Below are positions 228 to 63,973 of a stretch of 64,000 bases of DNA, in pieces. Each line of letters opens with the position of its first letter. Position 1 is the stretch's first letter. The stretch is from Chrysomallon squamiferum (Eukaryota; Mollusca; Gastropoda; Neomphalida; Peltospiridae): assembly GCA_012295275.1 (NCBI GenBank), contig CM022679.1, positions 5,363,657 through 5,427,656 on the forward strand, read 5' to 3'. A model generated the notes under the pieces. It was not told where the DNA came from. It saw only the letters and a list, made by a program, of their open reading frames with translations, and searched no databases. A program made the position numbers and the translations under genes.

Positions 228-621
228 TTATTGTCGTTTTGTATTTAACAATATGACAGCCAACAAGTTCAGAGTTTATATATAGCACAAACTTATTCAT
301 TAGTTATCGACAGAAATACTGAGTTATCATGATTATATAATTATTATTTTATCGCTTGGTAGTTGCATAATATTATGCACGTTATCTTTATTTTATTTTA
401 TTTTATTTTATTTTTACTGACCAGATATAATTTGAAATAGTTTACTATCTAGATTATATAATTCTTAGTAATTCAAGCAATAATGGTGCAGCTCATGATA
501 TAATTTAACGGGTTCTCTATGATATCTTTTCAAATATGCATCATGGTGGTAAAATAATTCTGATAAATCTATGCTTGTTGTTTGTCGTTCACTAGAGTAT
601 AATACCTAAATCTATTCACAG
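1..621 (+). other. probable intron of the polyketide synthase gene
   Basis: No reading frame is supported here. The stretch ends in a clear splice acceptor (ttcacag, AG at 620-621) directly before sequence coding TGTKAGDPVE, the conserved ketosynthase segment that normally follows a catalytic histidine. The remaining KS exons must therefore lie left of the window. It contains an (ATT)n tract at about 177-227 and a TTTTA run near 388-412. Confidence 0.7.
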
Positions 622-6600: not shown

Positions 6601-7305
6601 GGAAAAGAAAAGGTAACTCTGACACGTGATGTTTATGAAGCACTTCAACGAGTGTCCATGTCAACTGGCTTGAGCATGTTCAAGCTGCTGGCCTCAGCTT
6701 ATCAACTACTACTTCATCTGACATCCGGTGAAGCCGTTGTCGTTCTTCTAGCTGCAGTCGACGTCAAGCAGCACATTGGAAGCGTCAGTCACGCCGTGGG
6801 GAGGGGAGCAAATCTCATTCCTTTGTTAGCCACGTTTTCGTCCGATGACGTTAGCTGCGCCGACTTTCTCAAGAGCAACGAAACTTCAATTCAGACGTCA
6901 TTAGATCACTGCTTGTGTCCACTGGATGTCATCGAGGATCTTGTCAGCGCTGAGAAATTCAGAAACATTACTAGAAATAAGATAGTCATGGTCGAAAACG
7001 ATTTTTCTGTATCTTTGTCACAGCTGGGAAAAGAAAGAGGCTATGCATTTGACATCATCAGAACCGAAGACATGGGGACTCATGCAGAGGCCCAGCTCAG
7101 TTTGTGGAATAGTCCAAAAGAAAAGAAAATGACACTTGAACTGACGTACAACACAAATGTTATATCCTCCAAACGCGCTAAAACAGTGATGCGCGCTCTT
7201 AGAGACATTGCTATTAAAATTGGCAACGACGTCAGTCTCACGATTGCAAGTTTGCGGAGCATAGGAAACCTTGAAGAGATCAACTCACTCGATGCTTATC
7301 TGTAG
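622..7305 (+). CDS. animal FAS-like type I polyketide synthase, 3' part, with two apparent frameshifts
   Basis: Multidomain cytosolic enzyme expected to build a polyketide or unusual lipid from malonyl-type units. Seen in order (nucleotides): end of KS with NIGHLEPAAG (622-970); AT with GQSIGE (Ser codon 1511) and AFHSHH (1244-2200); DH with HRFSGTILIPG (His codon 2423) and HPAVLDAMFQ (2330-3130); structural half-KR (3165-3760); degenerate ER (3860-4560); KR with GGLTGLG and the Ser/Tyr/Asn set HSS..NYGAANAF (4801-5500); ACP with GLDSMQ (Ser codon 5770); condensation-like domain (5947-7302). No methyltransferase or thioesterase is visible. The reading frame shifts at about 1200-1243, between KS and AT, and at about 2601-2616 inside DH, in an A-rich run; both breaks sit in conserved domains and each looks like one missing base. 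Everything from 622 to the TAG at 7303-7305 is one exon. A fatty acid synthase is less likely because the ER is degenerate and there is no thioesterase. Confidence 0.9.
5947..7302 (+). other. C-terminal condensation-like domain of the polyketide synthase
   Basis: Follows the ACP directly in the same frame (about 450 residues). RHEVLRTTFE at 6106-6135 is the hallmark of the N-lobe in the condensation / CoA-dependent acyltransferase superfamily. The catalytic HHxxxD motif is expected about 75 residues later; NNIGFD stands there (6340-6357), so the Asp is kept and both His are replaced by Asn. A latch-like C-lobe follows to the stop. Seen: the position, and the missing His pair. Inferred: the domain is non-catalytic, or works without the usual general base, as a product-release or docking module. 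Confidence 0.75.
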
Positions 7306-14788: not shown

Positions 14789-14933
<145 letters not shown>

Positions 14934-16187: not shown

Positions 16188-16193
16188 TTTATT
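16188..16193 (-). terminator. polyadenylation signal of gene G1
   Basis: AATAAA on the minus strand, just after a candidate last exon (acceptor AG at 16239-16238, exon from 16237). The preceding text, actgtggtggaattta, resembles the 3' ends of G2 (ctctggtgtgaag) and G3 (cgctggtggaa), which supports it as the true gene end. Confidence 0.6.
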
Positions 16194-16576
16194 ATTAAAT
16201 TCCACCACAGTAAAAATTGGTCATCTTAATGAAAACCTGAAAAGAGTAAGAATCTAGAATTAGACAAATACATTTTTAAAATTTTGTATATTATTTCCAT
16301 TACGTGTAAACGCCTCAGCAGAAAACTGGCTACTTCATTTCATTTTGTTGTAATGTTTAACAGAATGTAGCGAAGGAAAATACACGTTTAAAATGCTGTA
16401 ATATTAAAAACTTCAATGAAGTATACAAATATCAATACATTTGAGACAAATTAAAAACATTTACGATAATGTTTTGCGCATTTAACTTGTACTACGTCAT
16501 TGTTCAATTCGAACGATTTTCAATTTGAGCCTAATTCGATGTACGGAATGACTTGAGCACATTATCGAAAAGACCA

Positions 16577-18959
16577 TCAAGACCAATCTACGACTCGGAC
16601 AAAACCAGAATGTTCTAATTCTGAAAATGTTCAGTTTAATGAAAATAATTCTTGATAAGAATTCTACATTTCATTATATTTTTTGGCATTATGTCGGTAC
16701 ATTTATACCACTTTCTATTAAACCGAATTGTGAAATAAAAAGGAATTGTAGATGAGAAAACTCGTGTAAATTATGACTACCTGTTTTCTGTACGAGAGCT
16801 CGTCTACGAAAGCCGGGTTCTAGTGGCTGTGCTGAGGCAAGCGACACTCCACTGTTCAACGCAGGCTGACCGCCGTAAACGGGTGTCGTAATAAAGTCTT
16901 TCAAAAACGAGCAAGCTTCGTGCAGCAAGTCGAGGAAAGGCAGATGAATATCCTGAAAAATTCAGCGTTTTACGTTTCGTTTTCTCAAGCGACAATAAAT
17001 CAACAGATTTCCGTGAAATGTTCGTTTTATCCAACAGCGTATTCACTTGTTATGTTATAAACTGAAAACTCACCTTGTTCATCTCTTCCAAGTGTTTCGA
17101 AATTCTGCAAAGACTTAATGTTCCCTTGACAACAGAATGCTTCAGTTTCTCAGTTTTCGGCGATTCAGACATTTCATAGCGCTTTGCTGCCACAGAATTG
17201 CCCATGGAACCGCCGTGGTTGCCTCCGCCGAACTCGCCTTTCGAATTGCCCATGGAACCGCCGTGGTTGCCCCCGCCATTCGAATTGCCCATGGAACCGC
17301 CCTGGTTGCCTCCTCCGAATCCGCCATTCGAATTGCCCATGGAACCGCCGTGGTTGCCTCCGCCGAATCCGCCATTCGAATTGCCCATGGAACCGCCGTG
17401 GTTGCCTCCGCCGAATCCGCCATTCGAATTGCCCATGGAACCGCCCTGGTTGCCACCGCCATTCGAATTGCCCATGGAACCGCCCTGGTTGCCCCCGCCA
17501 TTCGAATTGCCCATGGAACCGCCCTGGTTGCCTCCGCCGAATCCGCCTTTCGAATTGCCCATGGAACCGCCCTGGTTGCCACCGCCATTCGAATTGCCCA
17601 TGGAACCGCCCTGGTTGCCCCCGCCATTCGAACTGCCCATGGAACCGCCCTGGTTGCCTCCTCCGAATCCGCCATTCGAATTGCCCATGGAACCGCCCTG
17701 GTTGCCTCCGCCGAATCCGCCATTCGAATTGCCCATGGAACCGCCCTGGTTGCCACCGCCATTCGAATTGCCCATGGAACCGCCCTGGTTGCCCCCGCCA
17801 TTCGAACTGCCCATGGAACCGCCCTGGTTGCCTCCTCCGAATCCGCCATTCGAATTGCCCATGGAACCGCCGTGGTTGCCTCCTCCGAATCCGCCATTCG
17901 AATTGCCCATGGAACCGCCGTGGTTGCCTCCGCCGAATCCGCCATACGAATTGCCCATGGAACCGCCGTGGTTGCCTCCGCCGAATCCGCCATACGAATT
18001 GCCCATGGAACCGCCGTGGTTGCCTCCGCCGAATCCGCCTTTCGAATTGCCCATGGAACCGCCCTGGTTGCCACCGCCATTCGAATTGCCCATGGAACCG
18101 CCCTGGTTGCCCCCGCCATTCGAATTGCCCATGGAACCGCCCTGGTTGCCTCCTCCGAATCCGCCATTCGAATTGCCCATGGAACCGCCGTGGTTGCCTC
18201 CTCCGAATCCGCCATTCGAATTGCCCATGGAACCGCCCTGGTTCCCTCCGAATCCGCCATTCGAATTGCCCATGGAACCGCCCTGGTTGCCTCCTCCGAA
18301 TCCGCCATTCGAATTGCCCATGGAACCGCCGTGGTTGCCTCCGCCGAATCCGCCATACGAATTGCCCATGGAACCGCCGTGGTTGCCTCCGCCGAATCCG
18401 CCATACGAATTGCCCATGGAACCGCCGTGGTTGCCTCCGCCGAATCCGCCATACGAATTGCCCATGGAACCGCCGTGGTTGCCTCCGCCATTCGAATTGC
18501 CCATCGAACCGCCCATGGTGTTGCCGTAGTTGCCGCCCATCGAATTACCGTAGTTAGATCCTCCATTAGAACCGACATCGTTAGAATAGTGGCAGACATC
18601 CAGCAGAATTTCCATCAAACCCGCATCCAACAGTTGAGAAGCTCTAGTTCTGCTCACGTTAGAACTGTCTGGAATGGAGGTGTTCAGTTCTGGTGACTGA
18701 AAGAAGTCGGTAAAACGAAATACAAATTCAGATACGGATTGCGTACATACAGTCGAATAAAATGTTCTAAAAATTAGATGTTTACCTCAACGTTGTTCAA
18801 AATTGTTACGCCAGCACAAATTTTCTGGACTCCTTTCTTAATCCGTTCTTCCAGTCGTCTTCGTCTGCCTCTGCCTCGTCCTGCACCTCTGTGTCTGCGA
18901 CAGTCCGTCACATGTTGACAGACAACTGCCAACACCATCAGAATTATCAACACCTTCAT
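16577..18959 (-). CDS. G1: secreted protein with a long Gly/Asn/Ser repeat
   Basis: Family not recognised. Exon 2 (18962-18786; ATG 18959-18957) codes a signal peptide MKVLIILMVLAVVCQHVTDC, then an Arg-rich helix with one Cys. Exon 3 (18696-17074, 541 codons, uninterrupted) starts with a helix LLDAGLMEILLDVC, carries about 30 copies of GGSMGNSNGGFGGGNQ (16 residues, alternating with a 13-residue form), and ends with KLKHSVVKGTLSLCRISKHL. Exon 4 (16952-16781) codes FLDLLHEACSFLKDF. Exons 2 to 4 join in phase 0; exon 4 ends in phase 1. A possible last coding exon (16620-16577) would add about 15 residues and a TGA; this end is tentative. The two C-terminal helical exons found in G2-G4 are not found here. 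A non-coding first exon ends at 19157. Inferred: an extracellular fibrous, mucus or matrix protein. Confidence 0.8.
17195..18510 (-). repeat. coding minisatellite of G1, 48/39-bp units
   Basis: About 30 units, each containing cccatggaaccgcc on the plus strand. Two unit lengths (16 and 13 residues) alternate in short blocks that themselves recur, a higher-order pattern made by repeated unequal exchange. All units are multiples of three bases. The block is markedly GC-richer than its surroundings, and its lack of stops opens long meaningless frames on both strands. Confidence 0.95.
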
Positions 18960-19156
18960 TTCCTGGATTTATAATAAAACCACAGTAATTAGGATTTTTT
19001 AAATATCAGCTTGCTTTAAATTAATATGTACATACTTAAGTAAATAAATAAAATTAAAATTAAACTGACATGCCTTCAGTTCCATCTTAGCATCTGAAAA
19101 GAGGCAAAGAAAATCAAAATCTAACCTATAATTCAGAAATGAAAAAATAAGTCTAC

Positions 19157-19252
19157 CTTAATCGAGCAAAGCCCCCAAAACAAACAGCAAAGAAAAACGT
19201 ACATCTTTTTATATGAAGTATGTGGTCACGTGTTAGACATGCAATTCACGTG
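19157..19252 (-). promoter_or_regulatory. G1 promoter and non-coding first exon
   Basis: On the minus strand: CACGTG (19252-19247), 14 bp, CACGTG (19232-19227), 13 bp, TATAAAAA-type box (19213-19206), then a short first exon ending in aag with donor GTAGAC (exon end 19157). The two E-boxes lie 20 bp apart centre to centre, about two helical turns. Confidence 0.75.
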
Positions 19253-19320
19253 CTTTTTGTGTTATTACTGATTTTGATTTATTCATTTACTTGAGTTTCT
19301 TTAAAAATGTATCTCTTTTG

Positions 19321-19370
<50 letters not shown>

Positions 19371-20210
19371 GTTTTTTTTTTTTAATTCTAAAATAATTAT
19401 TTTCTGGGTTTTGTTTAATATTATTTCCTCTTTATATTTTATATACATATATCATTATTGTTGTCGTTATTATTTTGTTGTTTTAATTTTCATTTATGTT
19501 CGGATTTTTTTTTCTTTCAAATTTCATTCATTCACTTGCTTGATGTTGAGAAAGTAAAGCAGTAAGAAGCTTGCACAGTCTTATAAAATTACATATATAA
19601 ACACATATTTAAAAAAAAAAAAAAAAAAACTTTGTAAACATTTGTAAATAAATCAGTCGATAAGAAGCAACCATATACATACATACAAACAGATACAGCC
19701 AACAGACAGAGAGAAATTTAATGGGTTTTTCTCTTATCTATTTATGATATTTCGGATTGTGCCTGCGCATCTGCATATATATGTGTATATATATATACGT
19801 GTGTGTGTATGTACAGACAAACCTAAAGTTGAGGGGAAAATTTTGTTTCTAAACAATAGAGGACAAAGGCATGGTAATATATTTTATTTGTTTATTTTAT
19901 ATTGTTTTGTTTTGTACACTTAACTGAATGTCTTTCTAAATTGTTTTTAAATAGCAGATATGTTATTACGGGCGCAGTTTGCTGTATTGCAACTAACGGA
20001 TCAGGTGTTTTATCGGAATTTTCTCGACAGAAAACGTTTTGGGCAATTCCGCAATTCCACTGAGCTGCTGTCCTATTTCAAACACCCCGTAACAGCGGTT
20101 TGACAAAACAGTTTGAACCAGTTTAGAATTTACACGTGTATTTTGTTTTTAGAATTGTTAGGCGTCAATATTTTATAATGAAAATAAAGAACAAATGACT
20201 TTTTGTAATT
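19253..20210. other. G1-G2 intergenic region
   Basis: Between the G1 promoter and the 3' end of G2. Contains an (ATT)n tract (19322-19370), poly-A near 19610-19629 and short TA/TG runs. No coding exon was recognised. Confidence 0.6.
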
Positions 20211-20216
20211 TTTATT
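20211..20216 (-). terminator. polyadenylation signal of gene G2
   Basis: AATAAA on the minus strand, preceded by attttctctggtgtgaagt, which matches the context at the G3 3' end. Confidence 0.6.
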
Positions 20217-20427
20217 ACTTCACACCAGAGAAAATATTATCATTTCATGTTGACACCTGGAGTTCTAATACGAAAAGGCAAAATAGTTTAAGAAATGTAC
20301 ATGTGTGTTCATATGAATATAGTTTCCGATCTGTTGTTAAGCCGTCAATATTGATAATATTTTAACCAATTTGAGAAATAAATTTCAGTTAGAACGTACG
20401 TAAACAATCAACATAAATTTTATCGTT

Positions 20428-22026
20428 TTATATATGCAAGTATGGCAGTTTTACTGAACGATAAACATCTGATCGTTTCATTGGTTTCATCAGCAGTTTT
20501 AATACTTTGAAGAGATTAACGTATGGATATTTCAAAGCCTCCAATAAATCTTCGCAGACGTCCTTGCACTGGTCTTTGACACTAATGAACAGCTGCGTCT
20601 GGGATGACAGATTTTCCTGCAGTAACACGAAGGCTCCACTCTGAAAATGGTACATTATGAACACATTTTTGAGATCAATATTTTTACATACTGATTCTGA
20701 AATACAAAATAGTGTCAAAAACTGAAACTGAATTTCCTTTAAACAAATATCTATTAAGACTTCAGATGGTAAATTACGTTTCTTTGCAAAATCGTGTGAA
20801 TGGCATTTAAAAACTTCAACTTACGTCTTCCATTTCTAAAAGGTGCTGACACATGTTTGCTATTCTTAACACGATATCTGAAATAAGAAAAAAAATCACT
20901 ACTGGTATTTAGAAATATAGAATGTACAGTTTCAACACAAACCATTCAGTCTAGTGTATGAAATATTTAACCATTTTGTAACTTGCTGATATCCAATATT
21001 AAAATATACCAATTTTGATGTTCGGCTACACATACAAACGCACATTAATATTAAAAACAATTTCGAGGTTTCCTGCGGATTTCGATATATTATTATTTAA
21101 AAGGTGGATCAGATTAAATACCCGATTTTATTTTAGAAGCACCCTCTGCGTCAGACGTGGGTGGGGGTGTGGTAGATACTGCACGTTCCCTGAGGACAGG
21201 TGTGGTTGGTGACACACTACGTGACAGCACAGTTGCCTTATCATCAAATGTTTTCAGAAAAGTACAAGCTTCATCCAGGAGTTCGAGGAATGGCTGTTCT
21301 AGTTCCTGCAAGAAATTTAAGATATCAAATAAAACTAACAAATTTGTTTTACAATATCAAACATAATTTCATAAAAGGAAAAAAACAGAAGTAAGAAAAT
21401 TACCAAATCCATTTTTTCCAGATGTTTAGAAATTCGACAAAGTCTGGATGTGCCTCTGTCAATGGAATGTTTCAGTTTGTCTGTTTTGGGATATTTTAGC
21501 ATTTCATTGCGCTTTGCGGCTTCCGAATCATCGTCTTGTCGTCGTCGTCCTTGTCATGATCATCGTCGGAATCTACGGAGTCGCAGACGTCAAGCAGAAT
21601 GTCCATCAAACCCGCGTCAAGCGCTTCAGAAGCTCCGTTTCTGTTCATAGCTCGTTGAACTGGAGACGTGTCTGGATACGATGCATTTTTCGAGTCTTCC
21701 GAATTCTGAAACGAAAATATTTTAAATTTGACATTAAATCAACTATTCGTTTGTCTACATAAAATCTAGAATCCGTTGTCGCTTGTTAAACCAATTTACT
21801 CACTGGAAACCCAATATACAACAAGCTTATACCGATTTGTCATTTTACTGTTTTAAAAAACTACCTGAACATCGTCCAGTATTTTTACGCCAGTACAAAG
21901 TTTCCGGATGCCTTTCTCAATCCGTTCTTCCAGTCGTTCACGTCTACGTCTTCCACCTCCGTGTCTACGACAATCTGTGAGATGACAGACAACTGCTAAC
22001 ACCATCAGACCTACCAACACCTTCAT
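20428..22026 (-). CDS. G2: secreted protein with Asp-rich centre, one apparent frameshift
   Basis: Paralogue of G1 and G3-G5. Exons: 22029-21865 (ATG 22026; MKVLVGLMVLAVVCHLTDC, then RRRRERLEERIEKGIRKLC); 21705-21404 (ASYPDTSPVQRAMNRNGASE, GLMDILLDVC, a short Asp/His/Lys run, then KLKHSIDRGTSRLCRISKHL); 21305-21143 (PFLELLDEACTFLKTF and a Thr/Pro-rich tail); 20877-20825 (IVLRIANMCQHLLEMED); 20640-20428 (AFVLLQENLSS..CKDVCEDLLEAL to TAA). Phases agree except in exon 3, which is 302 nt instead of a multiple of three: near 21535 an expected aaggac reads aagac, and the direct frame then stops about 11 codons later. Either a real disabling deletion or an assembly error. Its last helix has two cysteines where other members have one. 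The final exon is longer than in G3/G4 and its exact end is less certain. Confidence 0.75.
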
Positions 22027-22514
22027 TTTCTGAATATATAAACAAGGTAACACTATTAAACACTTAGATATTAATTTTCTAAGCAGCAATAATAATAATA
22101 AATAATAATTATTATGACAATGAATAATACTAGTAAGATAAAAAAAATAAAATAAAAAGATAACAAGGAGTGTAGAACTGTAAATCACTGAAGTTAGGAC
22201 GGACGTCAGTGGCTCAACACACCATATTACGAAACATTTAACATTCTGTTTAACAATATTAATATTTCTGTAAACGGTCATTTGATCTTTAACACTGTTT
22301 TTGTACGCCACCAACGAGCTACGTGACAGCTGATGGGCAATTCTTCATCCATTTAAAACAATTACGATTATATGGAAAAAAATTACAAATTACAAAATTG
22401 AAATAATCTCCGAAATTAATTACTATGAAAAAAATTGCCCAATAGAAATGTTAATAATGGTAATGTACAAAGAGTAAAATTCAAAGAATAAAGAAAAAAA
22501 GAAGAAAAAACAAC

Positions 22515-22593
22515 ATGGGAATCCATTTATCAGATTTGTTTTGTGTCGGTGTCGTTTCGGTATCGGGTAAATGTATTCCCAGGCTAAGTCAAC
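22515..22593. repeat. small inverted repeat in G2 intron 1
   Basis: Counterpart of the 17-bp hairpin in G5 intron 1 (32237-32304), with the same central text (gtgtcggtgtcgtttcggta). Here the two arms have several mismatches. Confidence 0.6.
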
Positions 22594-22667
22594 TAAAATA
22601 AACGACAGAAGAAAAACAAAATAGTGTACGAAATTTAAAAGGCATTTACGAAAGTAACGAACACTAC

Positions 22668-22752
22668 CTTTGACTCAGCAAAGCCAGTTTCCAAATTAAT
22701 GCATGCGTTTTTATACAGGTGTTGATCACGTGTTTCGCACACGATTCACGTG
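22668..22752 (-). promoter_or_regulatory. G2 promoter and non-coding first exon
   Basis: Minus strand: CACGTG (22752-22747), 14 bp, CACGTG (22732-22727), 11 bp, TATAAAAA (22715-22708), then a first exon ending tcaaag with donor GTAGTG (exon end 22668). Nearly the same sequence as the G5 promoter, including the downstream words gcatgcatt and ctggctttgct. Confidence 0.8.
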
Positions 22753-22868
22753 TTTCTCGTTTTTATTCGGAAAACTTTCTTCGTTTTGTTTTCCGAGATT
22801 CAAAAATTAAACTTTTCTTTCATTGTATTTTTTTTTCATTTATTGTATTAATTTCAATTTTATTCAAA

Positions 22869-22907
<39 letters not shown>

Positions 22908-24201
22908 ATGTGCTATTAATATCTAAAATTGTATAGGTTTTCCTTATTTTATATCCGCTTTACTTATTTATTAGTTTTATATATATATTTTTTTTTTATT
23001 TATACATTGTTTTTCATTTGTTTTATTTTTCTTGTTATTTAGTTTATTTACTTATTTCATATATTTGTTCATCTGCTTTATTTATGTTTTTTTTTTGTTT
23101 TTTTTAAATGTATTTAATTACAACTAATATTCTTATTTATTACTTATATATTTTATTTCGTTCGTCTGTTAGTGTATTTGTTCAATTTATTCAGTTATTC
23201 TTTTTTAATTTTTTTTTTTTAATTATTTCATTTTGTTCCTTTTCATTTCATTTATTACTTTTAACTACCAATATTGCTACTACATCTATATTTTATTACT
23301 AATTCGTAGTTGTAGCAGAATTAATCGTTTGTAGTTATAGGTGTAGATGCAATAGTAAAAAGTACATGTGTTTGGTTATAAATGTTTTATATAAATCTGT
23401 ATTAACGTCAAAGCACACGCGTCGTTTTAAACAGACGGGTTTGCGATGCAGGACTTACCTGAGTTATTGTTGAAACATTTCAATGGTAATCGAGTTGAGA
23501 ACGAAGAAATATTTTAAAAGTACACTCTACAAATTCTTAACATTTAGCGTCTGCAATTGATTAAACATACAAGAAGAAAATCTATTCGTCCACGGGCAAT
23601 GCATGCAGAATGTCATTTAATGAAAGTAGATTTACAACACCGATTAGAATGGTAAATAATCCAAGAGGTTTGTAATATTTATCGATCACCACACTGATTT
23701 TATCTTTTAAGTCAAGTACCTGCGGAGTTGTTTTAAATCTTTAGTAGATTAAACACTTTATTTTATTATACTCTGTTGAAGCATTTATGTAAATATAAGG
23801 TTTTGATATCGGTCCATTTGTTAAGTGTTTTTAATCTCGTTTTTAGATATTAAAGAAAATTCCCCGCCGTTCTACACCCGCCCTTTTCCTAACGCAATAG
23901 TTTAGTATTTAGATTAATCAATGTTTGTTCCTTAAAAATTTTAAAAAAATTAGTTATTCGATTTTTAATCAACATCGTAGTACAAGTCCGTCCGACCAAG
24001 TAAATATTAATCTAAATTTCGTACGTCAGCCGAAATAAATGTACGTTTCATGTTCAGCTTTGAAGCCGTTTTGGTACTATATGCATTACAGTTAGTAATG
24101 TTTACTTAACTAAGCATTTCTAAATACTAAATACACAGCGAAACATTTCCAGACCTGTTCAACGTTTCAGAAAACAAAACGGCTATTTTTTGTTTCAATT
24201 A
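22753..24201. other. G2-G3 intergenic region with the outer half of an inverted-duplication arm
   Basis: 22820-23300 is T-rich simple sequence with a poly-T tract (22869-22903). From about 23480 to 23860 the sequence is a reverse-complement match, interrupted by differences, to about 31310-31680. No coding exon was recognised. Confidence 0.65.
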
Positions 24202-24207
24202 TTTATT
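24202..24207 (-). terminator. polyadenylation signal of gene G3
   Basis: AATAAA on the minus strand, in the last exon about 40 bp after the stop codon and just after cgctggtgg, a word shared with the 3' ends of G1 and G2. Confidence 0.65.
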
Positions 24208-24244
24208 CCACCAGCGAAAATATTTTCATTTTCTCTCCAAGGTT

Positions 24245-25788
24245 TTAGATCTGAAATTGAAGAAAAAACATCTCAACGTTAGCATTCAATATATATTTTA
24301 CGAAATATCGTTGAAAAATAGATTAAAAGTTCCCGTTTTATAATTAAACGTACGGACCTTGGGTTTCAATGCACCAGACAGATCTCGACAGAATCCTAAC
24401 CACCTGTTTTTGATGATGATGAACAGTCTTGGGTTGGTGGGTAGATATTTGTGCATTAGCTTCATAGCTCCAATCTGAAAATCAGATTAAGAATTCTTCA
24501 ATGTCGGAATTTTCAACTAAAATAGTTTAGCATCGCATTTTATACAACAAGTATAAACAATGTCGGCTTTCCCAATTACACTAAATTATGGAAAATTTGA
24601 ACGAGTTTTCAATTTCATGTAAATTCTGTGACAGCGTTACAATTGTATTTACCTTGTTAATTTTGGAGAGGAGCTGACAAATTTTCGCCATTTGCATTAC
24701 GATATCTGCAGGGAAAAAAAAAAACATTACAACCGTTAACATAAAATAGCACACGTAATGGAGTAAAAAAAAAAAACTCGCTGAAAATATATTTACCATA
24801 TACATACACACATTTTAAAAATAACATTTAAAAACCACCTGGTGCACTGGGGAAAGCCGATTCAGGAAAACCTTCGGGTTGGGGCGTTGTCGGTACGAAA
24901 CGTTCTTTAAGGACAGGCGTGGTGGGCGGTACATCAGATGGGGGTACAGTTGCCTCACTGCTAGGACGAGATTTCCTATCTGCAAAATCTTTCAAAAATG
25001 CGCAAGCTTCATCAAGCAAATCGAGGAAAGGGAGATCTAAACCCTGTAGGAAGGAAATTAAATGAATATAAAAATGCGCGTTCTGTCGAGATGCATTTCA
25101 GTAAACTTATTACATTTATACAATAATTACCATATCCATCATTTCCAAATGTTTCGAAATTCTACAAAGTCTGAATGTGCCTGCGACAACGCGATGTTTC
25201 AGTATGTTGATCTTTGGAAATTTTGGCATTCCATCACGCTTTCCCGCTTCCGACTCGTCCATCGAGTCATCGTCGTCCTCGTCCTTGTCATGATCATCGT
25301 CCTCGTGATCATCGTCCTTGTCATGATCGTCGGAATCTACGGAGTCGCAGACGTCAAGCAGAATATCCATCAAACCCGCGTCAAGCGCTTCAGAAGCTCC
25401 GTTTCTGTTCATAGCTCGTTGAACTGGAGACGTGTCTGGATACGATGCATTGTTCGATTCTTCAGCATTCTGAAAAGAAACACGGTTCAAATCTAATCCG
25501 CTCAGTTTCTAAAACGTCTTCATGAAACGCAATTCAGTGTACTTTGTTAAAAATCATTTCGGCATATTATTGAAGGAAAAATCCAACTTCAAACTACTAA
25601 GCTGTTAAATACATTTGAATGTTTACCTCCAGTTTGTCCAGAATTTTCACGCCAGTACAAAGTCTCTCGACTCCTTTCTCAATTCGTTCTTCTAGACGTT
25701 CGCGTCTACGTCCACCTCGTCCTCTACGACCCTCCGTCAGATGTTGACATACACACGCTAACACGATCAGAACTACCAACACCTTCAT
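24245..25788 (-). CDS. G3: secreted protein with acidic Asp/His/Lys centre, intact
   Basis: The cleanest member, with seven exons and no disruption. Coding exons: 25791-25627 (ATG 25788; MKVLVVLIVLACVCQHLTEG, then RRRERLEERIEKGVERLC); 25469-25131 (ASYPDTSPVQRAMNRNGASE, GLMDILLDVC, an acidic DDHDKDDDHEDDDHDKDEDD run, then RLCRISKHLEMMDM); 25043-24839 (LPFLDLLDEACAFLKDF, then a Pro/Thr/Ser tail); 24705-24653 (DIVMQMAKICQLLSKINK, the Asp codon split by the intron); 24474-24358 (IGAMKLMHKYLPTNP.. with one Cys); and 24250, where ATC is followed at once by TAA (24247-24245). About 293 residues with six conserved cysteines, one per helix. Phases are 0 except the exon 4/5 junction (phase 1). The acidic segment might bind calcium; that is inference. 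Confidence 0.87.
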
Positions 25789-26224
25789 TTTCTGTAATAA
25801 AAAATGAAAAATACAATACTTTAACCGCTACATTGTAACCTTTCACAATGTCATGCACATTATACGTTTAAAAATAGTCGTAATTTGTGAAAGCTAAAAT
25901 TACATCATCTACCAACGACGTTATGAACAGTTTTGCGATACTTGCAACTTCAGTAATTTAATAAAAACCATTTAAAGCATATTCGCGTTTGACGAAAGCC
26001 GAGGAAAGTTCTGGTAACCATTTCCCCCCCCCCCCCGCCTCGCGACCAAGTCTTATTGCCTCCGTTTATCAACTTTAAAAAACGAGCCAAAAATGAATTT
26101 AGGAAGCTTAAAATAGCAACCGTATTCAACAGTTTTCATTGAGAAACAAAACACGAATAGCAATTTAAGACGAATGTATAAATTTAAAAATCAAAAGAAA
26201 CATATAATAAATATTTGCTGTTAC

Positions 26225-26318
26225 CTTAACTGAGCAATACCCAAAACAATCTTCAAGGTGGTTTCTATGTCTTTTTATAGAAATTAGATGATCACGTGAT
26301 AGGCTTGCAATCCACGTG
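26225..26318 (-). promoter_or_regulatory. G3 promoter and non-coding first exon
   Basis: Minus strand: CACGTG (26318-26313), 14 bp, CACGTG (26298-26293), 13 bp, TATAAAAA (26279-26272), and a first exon ending gttaag with donor GTAA (exon end 26225). Confidence 0.8.
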
Positions 26319-26643
26319 CATTTCGTTTTTTCTTGTTTTATCGTGATTTTTTACTTTGCCATTTATTGCGACATTTTTTAAAATATATTTATATTATCAA
26401 AAAAAAAAATGTCTTTCATAATGTGTTTATATTTTTACCACATTTGATCGCACGCACACACACACACACACAAAAATAGATATTTTATTGTCACCTTATA
26501 TTTTATTTGTATTTTAATAATATAAATAGTAGTATTGACACAATAATAATCATTACTGTAATAATAGTCTTTGTTATATTAATGTATTTCATTATGGTGT
26601 TACTGTTGTCAGTTATGCTACTTTTCTGTAAGAAAACGAAAAG
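26319..26643. other. spacer between the divergent G3 and G4 promoters
   Basis: About 325 bp separates the outermost E-boxes of two promoters that fire in opposite directions. The spacer is AT-rich with a (CA)n run near 26452-26472 and shows no coding potential. It is short enough to hold shared regulatory elements. Confidence 0.6.
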
Positions 26644-26765
26644 CACGTGCACTGGTTTTACATGTTTCATGTGAGTGTTTCACTTATAAAAAGAGTCGCT
26701 GTAGGATTTAGTTACACATTCTTCATCCTGTCGTTGTGTTTGTCGTATTCGTCTTGTTCTTGATC
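26644..26765 (+). promoter_or_regulatory. G4 promoter and first exon
   Basis: CACGTG (26644-26649), 18 bp, a diverged CATGTG (26668-26673), 11 bp, TATAAAAA (26685-26692). A non-coding first exon probably ends near 26768 before a GTAAG donor. This is the only member whose second E-box and spacing have changed. Confidence 0.65.
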
Positions 26766-27143
26766 GGGGTAAGTAGTTAACTGAGCAGTAAGGAAACTGT
26801 ACATTAAATAAATGAATAAATAAATAAATATTTAATATTTAATATGTAGCGTTTATTCCGTTTCAATATCTCTGTCCAAATACTTGATTAAATGTTGAAG
26901 ATTCATAAAAACTCGTTTTTATTCTCTTTCCGTTTCGGTACAATACAAAATAAAAAAAAAATAAAAAAAAGGACATGTTGTAAAAAATCGCTTTTCTCTA
27001 AAGTTTTGTTCTAAAAGCTTATAACGTATCGGCTGTAATCGGAATTAAATTTCATAAGGCAAAAAATATTTGAAAACTTGACATTTTAACTTTTTAAATT
27101 CGCGTATTACAAACCATAGATAGTTGAGATTTTTTTTCAGAAC

Positions 27144-29086
27144 ATGAAGCTCGTCTTGTTCCTCGTGATGTCCGTATGTCTGACTGGGCACTGGACAGAC
27201 GCACGTGGACACCGAGGAGGCCAACGTTATCAGCATAGACTGGAAATGCGACTGAAGAAAAGGATAACCAAAATGTGTGGTCGAGTACAGGTGCTGAACA
27301 AAATGGAGGTAACCAATTTATTTTGATATTCAAAAATGACGTAAATAGAACGCAACTGAATGGTTAAGGGTTTGCATATAGTCAGACAATAATAATTTTT
27401 AATACAAAATTTGCAGAAGTATATTTTATAGGTTTGAGTGAGTGATTTGTGGGACTGATTAAAAGCGAAGAGTAAAAATCAATACAACTGGGTTTTAAAA
27501 TTTATAGCAGCGTGACTTCTACAATGACGAGTGATCCTTAAGATCATTAAAATTTTAGCTAATTTTTTTTTTTCCCAAAAGACGCCTGATCTGCCAGACG
27601 TTACTGTACCAGCCAGCACAATGACTATGCCTACTACACATATGCCTCATACGACGGATATACCGCCATTTGAGACTTCTGCAGATACACCTGTACCGTC
27701 GTCGGCATTTTCTGTACCGTCGTCGGCATTTTCTGTACCGTCGTCGGCATTTTCTGTACCGTCGTCGGCATTTTCTGTACCGTCGTCGTCGGCATTTTCT
27801 GTACCGTCGTCGTCGGCATTTCCAGTACCGTCGTCGTCGGCATTTCCTGTACCGTCGTCGTCGGCATTTCCTGTTAAACGAAGACTAGGCAAAGACGAAG
27901 CTATAGAACTTCTGGATCTGGGTTTAAAGAACATCCTCGTAGATGTATGCAAGAAAATGATGGAAAGCGGAGAGCTGGAATTTGGTCCGAATCCCGAAGA
28001 AATGCTAGAATCAAGATTAGTTGATAAACTGAGACACAGTATCGTTAGAAATGCTGTCAGAGCATGCAGAACTACCCAACATCTGGAAGAATTCGAGGTA
28101 ACTTCTCCAGCCTTACAAGTTTTAATTCCGAACTTAATTTACGTTTTACTTTAATTTCAATAAACTTCAATAAACTTCAAATTATTCACAAATTTTTATC
28201 GACTCGTCAGTCTTCAATTAATAACAGATTAAAAGTGCCAAAAAGAAGCGAATGTAAATTTAAAATTTTAAAACTCATGTATGACATTGTAAATTTTAGA
28301 ATGTACCATACCTGCAACATCTGGACAAAGCATGCAGGTTCCTGTCTCGCGCCGAGGAGAATGAATACGTCACCACTGCTGCTGCTTTCCCATTTCCCAC
28401 GTCGTACACGTCACTGCCAGCATCGTCTTCTCCACCTTTCTTTAGAGCCATACCAGCTAAACTGGGTAATCGCCTGACTTTAAACCAATTTAAAAGTAAA
28501 TCGATGCAAAACGCCAATGCTTTAAATTGTATAATCCAAATTCCTTCACTAGTTTCCCAAATTTTACTACCAGCTTATTTGTAAACACTTAGTATCGAGT
28601 CTTTCCGCATTTGAAAGAATTTTTGTTCAAAAGCAAAACGTAAACATTATTGAATGAAAACATGTCTAATACAGTTTTTTTTTTTTTTTTTCTTTCACAA
28701 GATGTTGTAAGGAAACTTGTAAAAGTTTGCAGAGAAGTACTGGTTGTGGACAAGGTATGTTGGATTTTTCAAATGCTGAATTTAACCTGCATGAACTTAA
28801 TCTGTTCCTGTGTAGTCAATTGTTCATATAATTACGTACATCGTCCATTACCGTTAAAAAAAAATCGAAAAAGTAACAGCTATTTTGAAAACTCAACGTC
28901 GTAAAAATTCTCTCAGCGAAAATTTATAGCTTGAGATTTCTAACATGATTTTGCTCTAAACTTCAGAATGGTGCCATGACTTTATTTCACAAGTATCTGC
29001 CAAACAAGCCTGCTTTGTTTATTGAGATTATGAAAGGATTTCTGACTTATTGCAAGAAGCTTGTCGGTGCAGTAAACGTGCAGTAA
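27144..29086 (+). CDS. G4: secreted protein with Ser/Ala/Phe/Pro repeat, intact
   Basis: Most diverged member, on the opposite strand to G1-G3. Coding exons: 27141-27308 (ATG 27144; MKLVLFLVMSVCLTGHWTDA, then a basic helix with KMCGRVQVLNKME); 27582-28097 (Thr/Pro/Met-rich start, about eight VPSSAFS-type repeats, then a helix with LLDLGLKNILVDVC, an inserted Glu-rich segment, and RACRTTQHLEEFE); 28300-28465 (YLQHLDKACRFL, Ala/Ser/Pro-rich tail); 28702-28754 (VVRKLVKVCREVLVVDK); 28967-29086 (NGAMTLFHKYLPNKPALF.. with one Cys, TAA at 29084). About 339 residues, all phases consistent; the 53-nt exon has the same length in G2 and G3. Here the repeat precedes the GLxxILxDVC helix, whereas in the other four members it follows it. 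Confidence 0.83.
27705..27872 (+). repeat. coding minisatellite of G4
   Basis: Tandem copies of gtaccgtcgtcggcattttct (21 or 24 bp), coding VPSSAFS or VPSSSAFS; the later copies carry one extra tcg codon and Pro variants. Confidence 0.9.
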
Positions 29087-29242
29087 ACGTAATAGGTACG
29101 TAATTTTAATTCTAAATTTTTTTTTTTTTTTTTTTTTTTACAAATGTTTACTAGCATGTAGAAATTTAAATTCCAAATTAAACTTTTTTTTTTTTTTTTC
29201 CAGATTTCGAACCGGGAAAACAATTTTGGTGATGGTTATAAC

Positions 29243-29248
29243 AATAAA
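29243..29248 (+). terminator. polyadenylation signal of gene G4
   Basis: AATAAA in a final non-coding exon that begins at 29204 after a poly-T/ccag acceptor. The preceding caattttggtgatgg resembles the G1-G3 3' ends. Confidence 0.6.
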
Positions 29249-30504
29249 ACATTTAAAATTTTAATTTGACTTTTTCTTATTAAATACGATCTGCGGGACT
29301 GAACTGACGTACTGACAATCTCGCTTATGAACATAAAATGTATAAACGATGAACGAAGAAGAGAATGACAGATCCAGAAGCTTAGTTCGGGAACACTGGA
29401 AAGTTAAAAATGTGCACAAACAGGCCAAAACATTTATTCCAGCTACGAGTAATTGAACTAAATATTCACCAAGAAGAAACTAGCAACGTTAAACGGTCGT
29501 ATAGTTGGTAATACCAGTACCTTGATTATAAACTTTCTATAGGTAGAAATAAAAGATGGCTGTCTCGCTCATTAATAGAATAATAATTTCTATACAACCG
29601 GTCTACGATAGTTTATTGGTTTAAATTGAACTGATTATTAAAGTTTACGTTTCGTAAACGCCGGCTTTTTCTTTTAGGGCAACGACCTCGGGATCAAAAT
29701 TGAAAAGGGAGGAAATTGTTGGTCTATATCTATACAAATATAGATATATGCCAAAGCCAGCGATACTAAAATTTATATTTTAACGCACAAACTGCATTAA
29801 ACCTTTCCGAAGCACCCTAGCAGTTTTTTTGTTTTTTATATATATATATATATATATACTTTACATGAGTGCATATGCTCATTTACTATTAATATAGTAA
29901 AACAAGAATAATAGAAATAAAAGAAACAAAATAAAAACGATATGTAGGTCAATTGTAACGGAAATAATAAAAACATTTCCTAATTAAAAAAAAAATAAAA
30001 AAAAAAAATTAAGTAATTCCAAACTAAAATAAAAATATCTGATTCTACTACAAACTAAAATGTTGCCACTATATATTTTTTTTTTTTGATTTGCTTCCGA
30101 TCCATAACCGTTATAAGAGATGTACCCAGCCTAACTTGGTTAAGACTGGACACTTTTTACAGTGGGACCGATTTTTTTCTTCTTATAAACTACAAATCTA
30201 CATACACACAGAAGAATGTAGTACAAACCTGTAATAGAAATTCAAACGCTCCTGCGTGAAAGTTTAACGCCCCCTATTCCGAATGAATTTTTAAATTATT
30301 TTTGTTTCCCGAATAGACGGCCAAGAAAACTTTTTTCTGTTTTCCTTTTTTTTTTTTTTTTTTTTTTTTTTTCTAAATGACTTGGACTCACTGCAGAACT
30401 GAAAACCAGTTCCCTAAATTGGCAGAAGACGTATTACTTAACAGAAAGATAAAGGTTCACTAATTTTATTACTTGCGGAAACGGCAATATCGTGCATTAA
30501 GAAC

Positions 30505-30541
<37 letters not shown>

Positions 30542-32064
30542 AGTTTGAGTATAGTGTCTGCATTTCAAACAATATTTTCTTAAAAGGTCACTAACTAGAC
30601 ATCCATATAGACTTAACGCATCACTCAATACTTTCATGAAAAATCCAGTTAGTTTCATAATAAAATATATGAAAACAATAATCGTCAATAGGTGTGTGTG
30701 TGTGTGTTTGTGTGTGTCTATATACATATATATGTGTATGTATCATGTAATATATATGTGTATATATATTTATATGTATATATTATAGTCTGTGTGTGTG
30801 TAAATTGATGCTAAATAATTTACTGTTTTGAAATCTGATTACAAATGTTATTTCTGTGGTGTGTTTTTTTGTTGTTGTTGTTGTTGTTGTTCTATATATA
30901 AGTAAAACAAGATAGACATAACTAAAATAAATGATTAAATTAAGCAATAGAAATACTGAATAACTTAGAAACCAAAATTAGACTAAATTTCAAATAATTA
31001 GCAGTAACATATTATTCCATTTCATAGATTTGAGTATGCAATAATAATAGCAAGACCGACTACTACTTGAACAACTTGCAAGTTTTATTGTAGCGAAAAC
31101 GAATCTTAATAACTTTAAACTCGAAACAATTCAGCTGATGTATTAAATAGGTGTAAATTAGTATCTTCTTGATCAGTCGGATTATGCTCCAATTTTATCA
31201 AAAATATAATCGATAGAACAGTTTTTTGAAAATTCATTAAAGGAACAAAACACCTCTTAATTCGTCTAAATAATGCAAAACTATAGGAATAGGTGAAACA
31301 AGACTTTAAAAAATTGCCAAATGGACCGATATCAAAAACTCTTTGCTGTTTAGACTAATAAACGAGATTTACATAAAAGAGTAACTCCGCGTAGTGTTCA
31401 GTGAAAATGTAAAATCAAAATAAAGTAGGATGATGATTGAGAAACAGCCCTGATTTTCAGATAAATATTATTTAAACCTCTTGGATTATTTACCATTCTA
31501 ATCGTTGTTGTACATCTGCTTTTATTAAATGGTATGCACCATGCATTTCACATGACTGAATCGATTCTCTTCTTACATGGTAAGTGTTGCAGACGCTAAT
31601 GTTAAGAATTTGTAGAGTGTACTTTTAAAATATTTCATCGTTCATAACGCGATTACATTCATAAAACGACTGAAATGTTTTTCAAAAACCATATAAGACA
31701 TTAATATAGGGGGGTATGTAAAACTGGTGTTTGTTATAAAAGTATAACAACAACAAACTACTATTTCTGTTGCATCAAGAACATCTACAGAAGCTATTAC
31801 GACTAATTTATGAATTCTTCTGCTACAGCTACCAATTAAAAATAAAATACAGTAGCAATATTAGTGAATAAAATGTAAACAAATACAATAAACAAATAAG
31901 AAAAGTAACTAGAACAAAGCAAATTTATTCAATAAATGAAACAAGTAAATAAACAAAGAAATTAAATAAAGAAAGAAAGAACAAAAGAAATAAGAAACAA
32001 AATAGTTAAAATAAAACAATTAAAAAAAATTAAATAAAGAAAAATTCAGCAAGAAAACGAAAAA
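29249..32064. other. G4-G5 intergenic region
   Basis: No exon of the G family or any other gene was recognised. Contains TA, poly-T (30348-30373), (TG)n (30507-30539) and (TTG)n runs. From about 31310 onward it is the outer part of the right inverted-duplication arm. Confidence 0.65.
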
Positions 32065-32149
32065 CACGTGAATTGTGTTCCAAACACGTGATCAACACCC
32101 GTATAAAAAGGCATGCATTCACGTGAAGACTGGCTTTGCTCAATCAAAG
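32065..32149 (+). promoter_or_regulatory. G5 promoter and non-coding first exon
   Basis: CACGTG (32065-32070), 14 bp, CACGTG (32085-32090), 11 bp, TATAAAAA (32102-32109), a third CACGTG at 32120-32125 near the expected start of transcription, then a first exon ending atcaaag at 32149 before donor GTAACG. Confidence 0.82.
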
Positions 32150-32236
32150 GTAACGTTCGCTATTTTTATTGTTGCATTTTAAATTTCGTACACTATTTTG
32201 CTTTTTTTTTCTGTCATTTCTTTTAGTTGGTTTAGC

Positions 32237-32304
32237 CTGGGAATCCATTTACCCGATACCGAAACGACACCGACACAAAATAAATCTGGTAAATGGATTC
32301 CCAG
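32237..32304. repeat. 17-bp perfect hairpin in G5 intron 1
   Basis: ctgggaatccatttacc (32237-32253) is exactly reverse-complementary to 32288-32304, with a 34-bp loop. The counterpart in G2 intron 1 has mismatched arms. Confidence 0.8.
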
Positions 32305-32745
32305 CCTTGTTTTTAATTATTCTAGTTTTACTCTTTGTACATTGCCTTTCATAAGTATTTCTGTTGGGCTGTTTGTTCCTATTTATTTATTTTTTATTTT
32401 TTGGACATTTGAGAGTTTTGCGGAGATAGTTTCAAATAGTTGGCTTGTAATTTTTTACCGTATAATAGTAATTGTTAAAGATTTGCCCATCGTTGGCAGA
32501 GTACAAAAACAGTGTTAAACATCAAATGACCGTTTATAGAAATGTTAATATCGTTAAACAAAATGACAAATGTTTCATAATATGGTTTCTTCAGCCCTTG
32601 ACTTCCGTCCTAACTTGAGATACTTTTGTCAATTTTTATTTTACTAGTATTTATTTATTATAATAATTATTACTATTATTACTACTACCACTACTACTTC
32701 TTAGAAAAGTAATATATTTAATATTGTGACATTGTTTATCAGAAA

Positions 32746-33915
32746 ATGAAGGTGTTGGTAGGTCTGGTGTTGGCGGTTGTCTGTCATCTCACAGATTGTC
32801 GTAGACACGGAGGTGGAGGACGTAGACGTGGACGACTGGAAGAACGGATTGAGAAAGGCATCCGGAAACTTTGTATTGGCGTAAAAATATTGAACCATGT
32901 TGAGGTATTTTTTTTTAAAACGGTAAAATATCAAATCGGTATAAACTTCTTGTAGATTGGGATCCTTTAATTGTATAGTGGGTAAATTGGTGTAACAAGC
33001 TACAACGGATTCTAGATTTTATGTAGGCAAACGAATAGCTGATTTAATGTCAAATTTAAAATATTTTCGTTTCAGATGGCGGAAGACTCGAAAAATGCAT
33101 CGTATCCAGACACGTCTGCAGTTCAACGAGCTATGAACAGAAACGGAGCTTCTGAAGCGCTTGATGCGGGTTTGATGGACATTCTGCTTGACATCTGCGA
33201 CGACATAAATGTTAATAATGACGATCATATGAGCCTAACGAGCGTACCGACAGATGTGCCCACCGACAATTCCTTGGGCAAAAAGTCGGTGACGGGACCC
33301 ACGGGCATGCCCAGCGGCGGAGGCTGGCAGGACAGACCCACGGGCATGCCCGGGGTGGAGGCTGGCAGAACAGACCCACGGGCATGCCCGGGGGTGGAGG
33401 CTGGCAGGACAGACCCACGGGCATGCCCGGGGGCGGAGGCTGGCAGGACAGACCCACGGGCATGCCCGGGGGCGGAGGCTGGCAGGACAGACCCACGGGC
33501 ATGCCCAACGGCGGTGTCACGGGCATGCCCAACGGTGGACCCATGGGCAGACCCACGCAAGGAGTGTCCGATCCTGCAGAAGTTGACAAAGTGAAACATT
33601 CTGTCGTTAAAGGAATTTTCCGCCTTTGTAAAACCGTTAAACATTTGGAAAGAATGGAAATGGTATTTAACTTTTTATTTTATTTAAAAATGTATAAAAT
33701 AAAATATCCTGGCTTAACACTCGAATGGTGAAGTCTAATGTTAATCTGTTTAGCTATCCTAGTCTTAAATTGTCGCAAACATTTTATTTTACTTTGTTTA
33801 TCTTGTCTAGGATGTCGATCTTCCGTTCATGGAGTTTTTAAACGAAGCTTGCATGTTCTTAAAAGATTTTGGAAGACACAACGTGCATGTCCGTTTTGTC
33901 GACCATACCCAATGA
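32746..33915 (+). CDS. G5: secreted protein with Gly/Pro/Met/Trp repeat, one apparent frameshift
   Basis: Close paralogue of G2 at its 5' end. Exons: 32743-32904 (ATG 32746; MKVLVGLVLAVVCHLTDC, then RRRGRLEERIEKGIRKLC); 33076-33662 (ASYPDTSAVQRAMNRNGASE, GLMDILLDIC, then PTGMPGGGGWQDR units of 39 bp, then KVKHSVVKGIFRLCKTVKHL); 33811 to a TGA at 33913-33915 (DLPFMEFLNEACMFLKDFGR). Exon 3 is 587 nt: the second repeat unit has four G (33352-33355) where the next unit has five (33390-33394), so the direct frame leaves the repeat and stops at 33594. The exon 4 helix ends early and the Pro/Thr tail of G2/G3 is out of frame after the TGA, so the end may also be decayed. The two C-terminal helical exons are missing; the next exon found, at 34199, carries the polyadenylation signal. 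Confidence 0.7.
33290..33550 (+). repeat. coding minisatellite of G5, 39-bp units
   Basis: About five units containing acgggcatgcccggggg and ggaggctggcaggacagac, followed by shorter Thr-Gly-Met-Pro-Asn-Gly units. GC-rich against AT-rich surroundings. Confidence 0.9.
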
Positions 33916-34242
33916 GGCCAACGCCTTTTCTGAACGAGCTTTCCGATAGAAGCCAGGTAAATGTTTGAAAAGATTATAGTAAGTCCATATTAACATTATT
34001 TCATCTCAAAATGATGAAAAAAAAAATAGTAATACGATTTGATTTTATATCGGTAATATTGTAAACTATCATCTTGAAATTCTGTAAGCTGAATAATTCG
34101 ATAGTTAACATAAATTTTTGTTTAATAAATGTATATTGCTGTTAAGAATGAGCCTCACAAATCTTAATACGAAAAAATTAAACTTGTTTTCGTTTCAGGT
34201 AAACTTAAAATTCGTTATACTATTTCGATGGTTGTGGACATG

Positions 34243-34248
34243 AATAAA
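34243..34248 (+). terminator. polyadenylation signal of gene G5
   Basis: AATAAA in a final exon starting at 34199 after acceptor tttcag; the preceding tatttcgatggttgtgg resembles other family 3' ends. Confidence 0.6.

Positions 34249-39939: not shown

Positions 39940-63973
<24,034 letters not shown>

Follow-up and report, generated by a model that had tools for sequence, protein, structure and literature searches.

Five paralogous genes lying between 16.2 and 34.2 kb in DNA from the scaly-foot snail Chrysomallon squamiferum – a deep-sea vent animal – form a family of secreted gastropod proteins, orphan and tandem-duplicated, which is well supported and for which a fold and a function can be proposed. 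The window, meaning the whole stretch of DNA that was analysed, is 64,000 nucleotides long. Genes G1, G2 and G3 are on the minus strand, G4 and G5 are on the plus strand, and common to all five are phase-0 exons, helices that carry Cys and an N-terminus resembling a signal peptide.

Gene models and copy history

The first-pass annotation had placed five paralogs at 16188..34248, and this is confirmed by shared exons and phases and by profiles of exon 1 and the other helix segments, which recover five copies from the six-frame window at E-values from 1e-32 to 4e-11, the profiles having been made from the same five copies and the next-best match having an E-value of 0.071. The AATAAA signals of G1 and G5 sit at the outer coordinates of that interval. 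All five genes have three coding exons with GT/AG sites in phase 0, and an AG lies 3 nt upstream of the ATG in each. The gene ends originally proposed for G2, G3 and G4 were too short, as these genes have two further conserved exons after exon 3 (one entered in phase 1 and left in phase 0, then the next) that encode a third helix pair; it lies in small exons missed at first reading, and gene models of this kind easily end too early. Profiles of these further exons found no third-module exons for G1 and G5. The description of the proteins as small does not hold for G1, which is 659 aa long. The exons are as follows, with signal peptides and helices as predicted.

G1, 18786..18959, minus: coding exon 1, signal peptide, Arg-rich stretch, helix A1 (Cys)
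G1, 17074..18696, minus: exon 2, helix B1 (Cys), 459-aa Gly/Asn/Ser repeat loop, helix A2 (Cys)
G1, 16781..16952, minus: exon 3, helix B2 (Cys) and tail
G1, 16226..16236, minus: last coding piece and stop, then AATAAA; like the G3 last exon by eye
G2, 21865..22026, minus: exon 1, signal peptide and helix A1
G2, 21404..21705, minus: exon 2, helix B1, acidic linker with frame break, helix A2
G2, 21122..21305, minus: exon 3, helix B2 and Pro/Thr tail
G2, 20825..20877, minus: exon 4, helix A3 (Cys)
G2, 20429..20640, minus: exon 5, helix B3 (Cys); conserved at 20524-20640, 3′ limit uncertain
G3, 25627..25788, minus: exon 1, signal peptide and helix A1
G3, 25131..25469, minus: exon 2, helix B1, Asp-rich loop, helix A2
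G3, 24839..25043, minus: exon 3, helix B2 and Pro/Ser/Thr loop
G3, 24653..24705, minus: exon 4, helix A3
G3, 24358..24474, minus: exon 5, helix B3
G3, 24245..24250, minus: exon 6, last codon and stop
G4, 27144..27308, plus: exon 1, signal peptide and helix A1
G4, 27582..28097, plus: exon 2, SSAFSVP repeat loop 5′ of helix B1, then B1 and A2
G4, 28300..28465, plus: exon 3, helix B2 and tail
G4, 28702..28754, plus: exon 4, helix A3
G4, 28967..29086, plus: exon 5, helix B3 and stop
G5, 32746..32904, plus: exon 1, signal peptide and helix A1
G5, 33076..33662, plus: exon 2, helix B1, GGGWQDRPTGMP repeats with frame break, helix A2
G5, 33811..33915, plus: exon 3, helix B2

Reading is open over all spliced exons in G1, G3 and G4. 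The frame is broken in the acidic linker of G2 and in the repeat linker of G5, and the last exon of G5 also looks frame-shifted near its end. A polyketide synthase neighbouring the cluster, itself a pointer to this snail as the source, is likewise read in successive overlapping frames. Because of this, and because the scaly-foot snail assembly is described as built from nanopore plus Illumina data (PMC7142155), indel errors in the assembly are plausible, and the breaks in G2 and G5 are possibly such errors.

At conserved codons dN/dS is 0.30-0.48 in nine of the ten gene pairs – fewer segments being covered in pairs involving G4 – and is undefined through saturation in the tenth. Divergence at synonymous sites with retention of the amino acids shows that purifying selection has acted. 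The B segments taken separately give 1.76 for G2-G5 and 0.92 for G3-G5 (46 codons each), and the 5′ parts of the genes are gene-conversion-like mosaics.

A three-fold helix module with variable loops

The protein appears to be built from three repeats of a unit in which a Cys-bearing helix A is separated by a phase-0 intron from a Cys-bearing helix B. G2, G3 and G4 have three A-B units per protein, two were found in G1 and in G5, and mature G3 and G4 have six cysteines, one per helix. Segments are repeated within the protein, strongly for A and more weakly for B: A1-A2 and A2-A3 similarities are each matched by 0 of 2000 column shuffles, A1-A3 by 23, B1-B2 by 28 and B1-B3 by 11, with B2-B3 not significant (320 of 2000) and A-B cross controls at 90 to 228 of 2000. 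Comparison of whole modules by hhalign gives P-values of 0.0017 (1 versus 2), 0.0074 (2 versus 3) and 0.073 (1 versus 3), with low probabilities for the module pairs (15, 5 and 1%). The helices are predicted solely from single-exon structure models of two exons, with mean pLDDT of 56.7 and 79.3; the 39-residue B3 model has no Foldseek match, which is uninformative at such length. G3 and G4 share a strongly conserved GAM.L.HKYLP segment in their third module.

The loops are mutually unrelated in sequence and different in most paralogs. They consist of Gly/Asn/Ser repeats in G1 (459 aa, 48% Gly, 30 GGSMG units), Asp runs in G2 and G3 (18 of 33 residues in the G3 loop), SSAFSVP repeats in G4 (Ser 27/97, Pro 19/97), which occupy another loop, and GGGWQDRPTGMP repeats in G5. 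By hydropathy rather than SignalP, the N-termini of G1, G3 and G4 are hydrophobic (best 19-residue mean 1.2 to 1.9), and by hydropathy rather than TMHMM these three proteins have no transmembrane segment, the highest 19-residue mean elsewhere being 0.84 to 0.99.

Relatives and comparable systems

The earlier designation of the family as unrecognised is borne out. No Pfam family reached its curated threshold when G3, G4, the first three exons of G1 and parts of G2 and G5 were searched, and no significant relative was found in the PDB. A set of 5.8 billion proteins, which includes those of Gigantopelta, Haliotis, Patella and Lottia, held no protein at E <= 1 by a method that needs shared 5-residue words. 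Weak Pfam matches of G3 fall mostly on its acidic run; a Pfam octapeptide-repeat profile on the G1 repeats (E 0.039) and a PDB profile match to a viral fusion protein (E 0.067) were both taken as chance or composition. Bacterial or viral origin was considered and rejected: scans of genome and viral contigs with a two-protein alignment produced 135 and 140 pattern matches, respectively, none of them a relative, and the first 95 residues of G3 have no match in phages. The data are consistent with the further proposal of lineage specificity, as judged from the 5-residue-word protein search and from the snail's own genome as the sole mollusc genome covered. In that genome, a G3-based search places the family at this one cluster only. 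A match outside the cluster (C13, E 0.64) sits on a Pro/Thr repeat frame and was rejected; a second is in C8 (E 6.6). Neither a tRNA nor an Rfam match at gathering score is present in the window.

Silk-like structural proteins (SLSPs) are defined by at least 25% Gly in an 80-residue window, a signal peptide and no transmembrane segment (McDougall et al. 2016; PMC4944945), and G1 resembles them in its signal-like N-terminus and glycine-rich repeat domain. Computed for G1, G3, G4 and a stretch of G5 read alone, the best 80-residue Gly fraction is 0.51 in G1, 0.35 in the G5 stretch, 0.10 in G3 and 0.05 in G4, so that G1 and the G5 stretch reach the SLSP glycine level, G3 and G4 fall below it, and the family as a whole does not qualify. 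With only 10% Gly in G3 and 5% in G4, it is helices and not glycine that define the family, and composition supports the matrix, mucus, adhesive or shell material suggested at first for only part of it. Like molluscan shell matrix proteins, these proteins are secreted-looking, have no relatives found, and carry Asp- or Gly-rich stretches inside a conserved protein; unlike them, they have no Pfam domain at cut-off, and their presence in shell is putative. G1 resembles spidroins in having Cys-bearing helix segments that flank a Gly-rich repeat core, but the G2, G3 and G4 loops are acidic or Pro/Ser, and Pfam searches with the single exons of G1 and with G3 and G4 brought up no spidroin domain at E <= 10. 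Saposin-like proteins have helices with six cysteines, as do G3 and G4, whereas in the present family each helix has a single Cys and phase-0 introns split the three A-B pairs, and G3 and G4 have no saposin match in Pfam.

Proposed role and alternatives

We tentatively favour, at a little short of even chances, a secreted helical scaffold with changeable low-complexity loops that serves as a structural component of extracellular material. The helices, with one cysteine each, would pair through disulphides into a compact scaffold responsible for anchoring or assembly, and the loops would set the bulk material property of each paralog: elastic or gel-forming if Gly-rich, cation-binding if Asp-rich, possibly glycosylated if Pro/Ser-rich. 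The most likely role would be as part of mucus, periostracum, or shell or sclerite matrix. The published finding that the scaly-foot snail mantle has a higher ratio of low-complexity-repeat genes favours this reading, and that the scale epithelium does not have it speaks against a role in scales (PMC7142155).

Conserved basic helices would be in keeping with host defence or signalling as well. A role as secreted defence or symbiosis proteins, with basic disulphide-pinned helices that would bind microbes and with variable loops and gene conversion that would reflect an arms race, is unlikely, if deserving of some weight: mature G1 (pI 9.6) and G4 (pI 9.3) are basic, an Arg-rich segment precedes helix A1 in G1, G2, G3 and G5, the clustered duplicates have conversion-like mosaics, and the snail is reported to house bacterial endosymbionts (PMC7142155). 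However, mature G3 is acidic (pI 5.2), the conserved codons are overall under purifying selection with the two B-segment pairs as exceptions, and loop variation appears to resemble repeat slippage, not residue-level change. Orphan status, tandem arrangement and fast evolution are common among reproductive secretions. A seminal, albumen-gland or egg-capsule origin would match the lack of found relatives, the tandem cluster at a single genome site and the repeat-length diversity, but no sequence feature specifically indicates such a secretion, and we think this quite unlikely.

That the proteins are secreted signals or carriers, cytokine-like helical bundles with the loops as tolerated insertions, seems highly improbable; conserved one-Cys helices and the strongly kept GAM.L.HKYLP segment would fit, yet loops of up to 459 aa would be odd for such a protein, and profile and PDB searches gave no match. 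Decay of the cluster, with some or all copies being pseudogenes, is equally hard to credit: the frame breaks in G2 and G5 and the third module not found in G1 and G5 point that way, but G1, G3 and G4 are open, dN/dS is low in nine of ten pairs, and assembly indels offer a plausible source for the breaks.

A more ambitious form of the structural-material reading would make this a new architecture – exon-pair-triplicated, one-Cys-per-helix hairpins forming a constant scaffold, with unrelated loops swapped in at different positions to give elastic Gly/Asn, cation-binding Asp and Pro/Ser materials for the armour or mucus of the scaly-foot snail – and this we regard as distinctly doubtful. The animal is known for its iron-sulphide-coated armour. 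If the materials reading is true, the cluster would be a compact natural experiment – one conserved core in five copies over 18 kb with four kinds of loop – and would offer a direct test of how the property of an extracellular material follows from loop sequence.

The gene cluster and its surroundings

The window is animal DNA carrying spliced genes, among them:

within 16.2-34.2 kb, minus strand: G1, G2 and G3, paralogous genes for secreted-looking proteins
within 16.2-34.2 kb, plus strand: G4 and G5, further paralogs
603-7305, plus strand: polyketide synthase-like gene, in three overlapping frames

All five paralogs begin with a hydrophobic N-terminus, by the look of which their proteins would be secreted, and in four of them an Arg-rich stretch comes next. 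Three phase-0 coding exons bounded by GT/AG sites are present in every gene, and an intron in the 5′UTR is suggested because an AG lies 3 nt upstream of every ATG (5/5). Profiles of exon 1 and other helix segments, built from the same five copies that they match, recover all five at about E 4e-11 or better, and the best match elsewhere in the window is at E 0.071. The first-pass annotation's claim of a five-paralog cluster is thus borne out by common exon structure and profile matches, and at the sequence level a real gene family is well supported.

The polyketide synthase-like gene has ketoacyl synthase, acyltransferase, dehydratase, KR and ACP domains and a C-terminal condensation domain, and its best six relatives among the matches listed are from Gigantopelta aegis (55-58% identity). 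Protein kinase-like and guanylate cyclase domain pieces lie on the minus strand at about 41.9-50.4 kb, over several open frames and arranged as in a receptor guanylyl cyclase. Long GA, CT, CA and TTA simple repeats occur at many sites (e.g. 14790-14930, 41458-41793 and 54805-55146) and give rise to spurious long open frames.

A repeated helix module

The first-pass gene models end too early, as extra exons with cysteine-bearing helices lie 3′ in G2, G3 and G4. A phase 1 GT donor is possible at the end of exon 3 of G1 to G4, and a search for short exons entered in phase 1 and left in phase 0 places one with a cysteine-bearing helix downstream of G2, G3 and G4, chosen by eye among 12 listed candidates; a further exon follows it, conserved in all three genes. 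The full models comprise 293 aa in six coding exons (G3) and 339 aa in five (G4); the two proteins are 35% identical over their length and 49% identical within the final helix exon. Profiles of these two exons, which hold the third helix pair (A3 and B3), match their own source genes, the next-best matches being at E 0.17 (A3) and E 0.36 (B3); they revealed no third helix pair in G1 or G5.

Each module consists of helix A, a phase-0 intron and helix B, and MAFFT places the second pair on the first when the halves of G1, G2 and G5 are entered as separate rows. When columns were shuffled around the shared cysteine (2000 shuffles), the counts were 0 for A1-A2, 0 for A2-A3 and 23 for A1-A3, and 28, 11 and 320 for B1-B2, B1-B3 and B2-B3. 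Helix periodicity is lost on shuffling as well, and the A-B cross comparisons control for this only in part (A1-B1 90, A2-B2 228, A1-B2 153 and A2-B1 226, each of 2000). Comparison of modules by hhalign gives P 0.0017 (1 v 2), 0.0074 (2 v 3) and 0.073 (1 v 3); the corresponding probabilities are low (15%, 5% and 1%). On these results the A segments appear convincingly related to one another and the B segments weakly so, and duplication of a two-exon unit would fit the phase-0 intron that separates A from B in every module.

The loops between helices are of low complexity and varied composition. Between B1 and A2, G1 has 459 aa, 48% of them Gly, in which the unit GGSMG occurs 30 times, and G3 is rich in Asp (18/33); the long repeat of G4 is placed between A1 and B1 instead (27 Ser and 19 Pro of 97). 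The repeat units of G5 are GGGWQDRPTGMP, 39 nt each, and the B2-A3 loop of G3 is Pro-rich (12/48). Mature G3 and G4 have six cysteines, one in each helix; in G1 four cysteines fall in helices and a fifth lies close to where the signal peptide is presumably cleaved.

Searches for relatives

The family had been described as unrecognised, and within the scope of our searches it remains so. Pfam, queried with G3, G4, G1 exons 1-3 and parts of G2 and G5, gave no match at a curated cut-off, and the PDB no significant relative of G3, a G3+G4 profile or G1 exon 2. In a large protein set, searched by a method that depends on exact shared words, none of 803 candidates for the first, shorter G3 model reached E 1, nor did any of 7984 scored candidates for G3+G4, a capped set that may have been filled with low-complexity matches. 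This negative is informative because the set includes Gigantopelta, Haliotis, Patella and Lottia proteins.

The host genome searched has 404,604,130 bases in 22 contigs (the window being C15:5363657-5427656), below the 444.4 Mb given for the scaly-foot snail (PMC7142155) and the 455.36 Mb of another assembly (PMC7736800); 15 linkage groups and seven unanchored contigs, 22 in total, are described (PMC7142155). All five matches to G3 exon 1 lie within the cluster, as do 20 of the 22 matches to the G3 protein at E <= 10, the other two being at E 0.64 and E 6.6. The family is not mentioned in the passages of text covered by our literature search, and its genes may nevertheless be annotated elsewhere.

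Selection, mosaicism and a possible role

In conserved codons dN/dS is 0.30-0.48 in nine of ten gene pairs, those with G4 spanning fewer segments (71-128 codons), and is undefined through saturation for G3-G4. The A2-B2 part gives 0.12-0.44 in the six of ten pairs where it is defined (G1-G4 on 18 codons); short B segments run counter, at 1.76 (G2-G5) and 0.92 (G3-G5). The 5′ parts of G2 and G5 are near identical (dS 0.06-0.08, intron 1 91%) and their A2-B2 parts saturated (pS 0.75); G2 and G3 have a near-identical B segment (dS 0.06) yet just 56% identity in intron 1. Such mosaics among G2, G3 and G5 are of the kind that gene conversion would leave. G2 and G5, with their upstream DNA, also share inverted similarity (78% over 1,233 and 84% over 200 aligned columns), which spans 21580-23683 and 31460-33201 and takes in non-coding DNA upstream of both. 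An open frame of 52 aa (23582-23740, minus strand), which may or may not be coding, lies mostly within it.

Frame breaks interrupt the linkers of G2 and G5, and these genes may be true pseudogenes. Assembly indels are a plausible source of the breaks because the probable source assembly was built from nanopore and Illumina reads (PMC7142155); the neighbouring polyketide synthase is likewise split over its frames.

AlphaFold2 models have two helices both for G3 exon 2, at low confidence (mean pLDDT 56.7), and for the B3 exon (mean pLDDT 79.3); since they cover single exons alone, a hairpin fold with disulphides is something we infer for the family. As read from their sequences, the five genes are a family under selection, without recognised relatives, in which a repeated helical module is joined by changeable low-complexity loops. 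The likeliest reading, which we hold tentatively, is that the proteins may be structural components of a secreted material such as mucus, periostracum, or shell or sclerite matrix.
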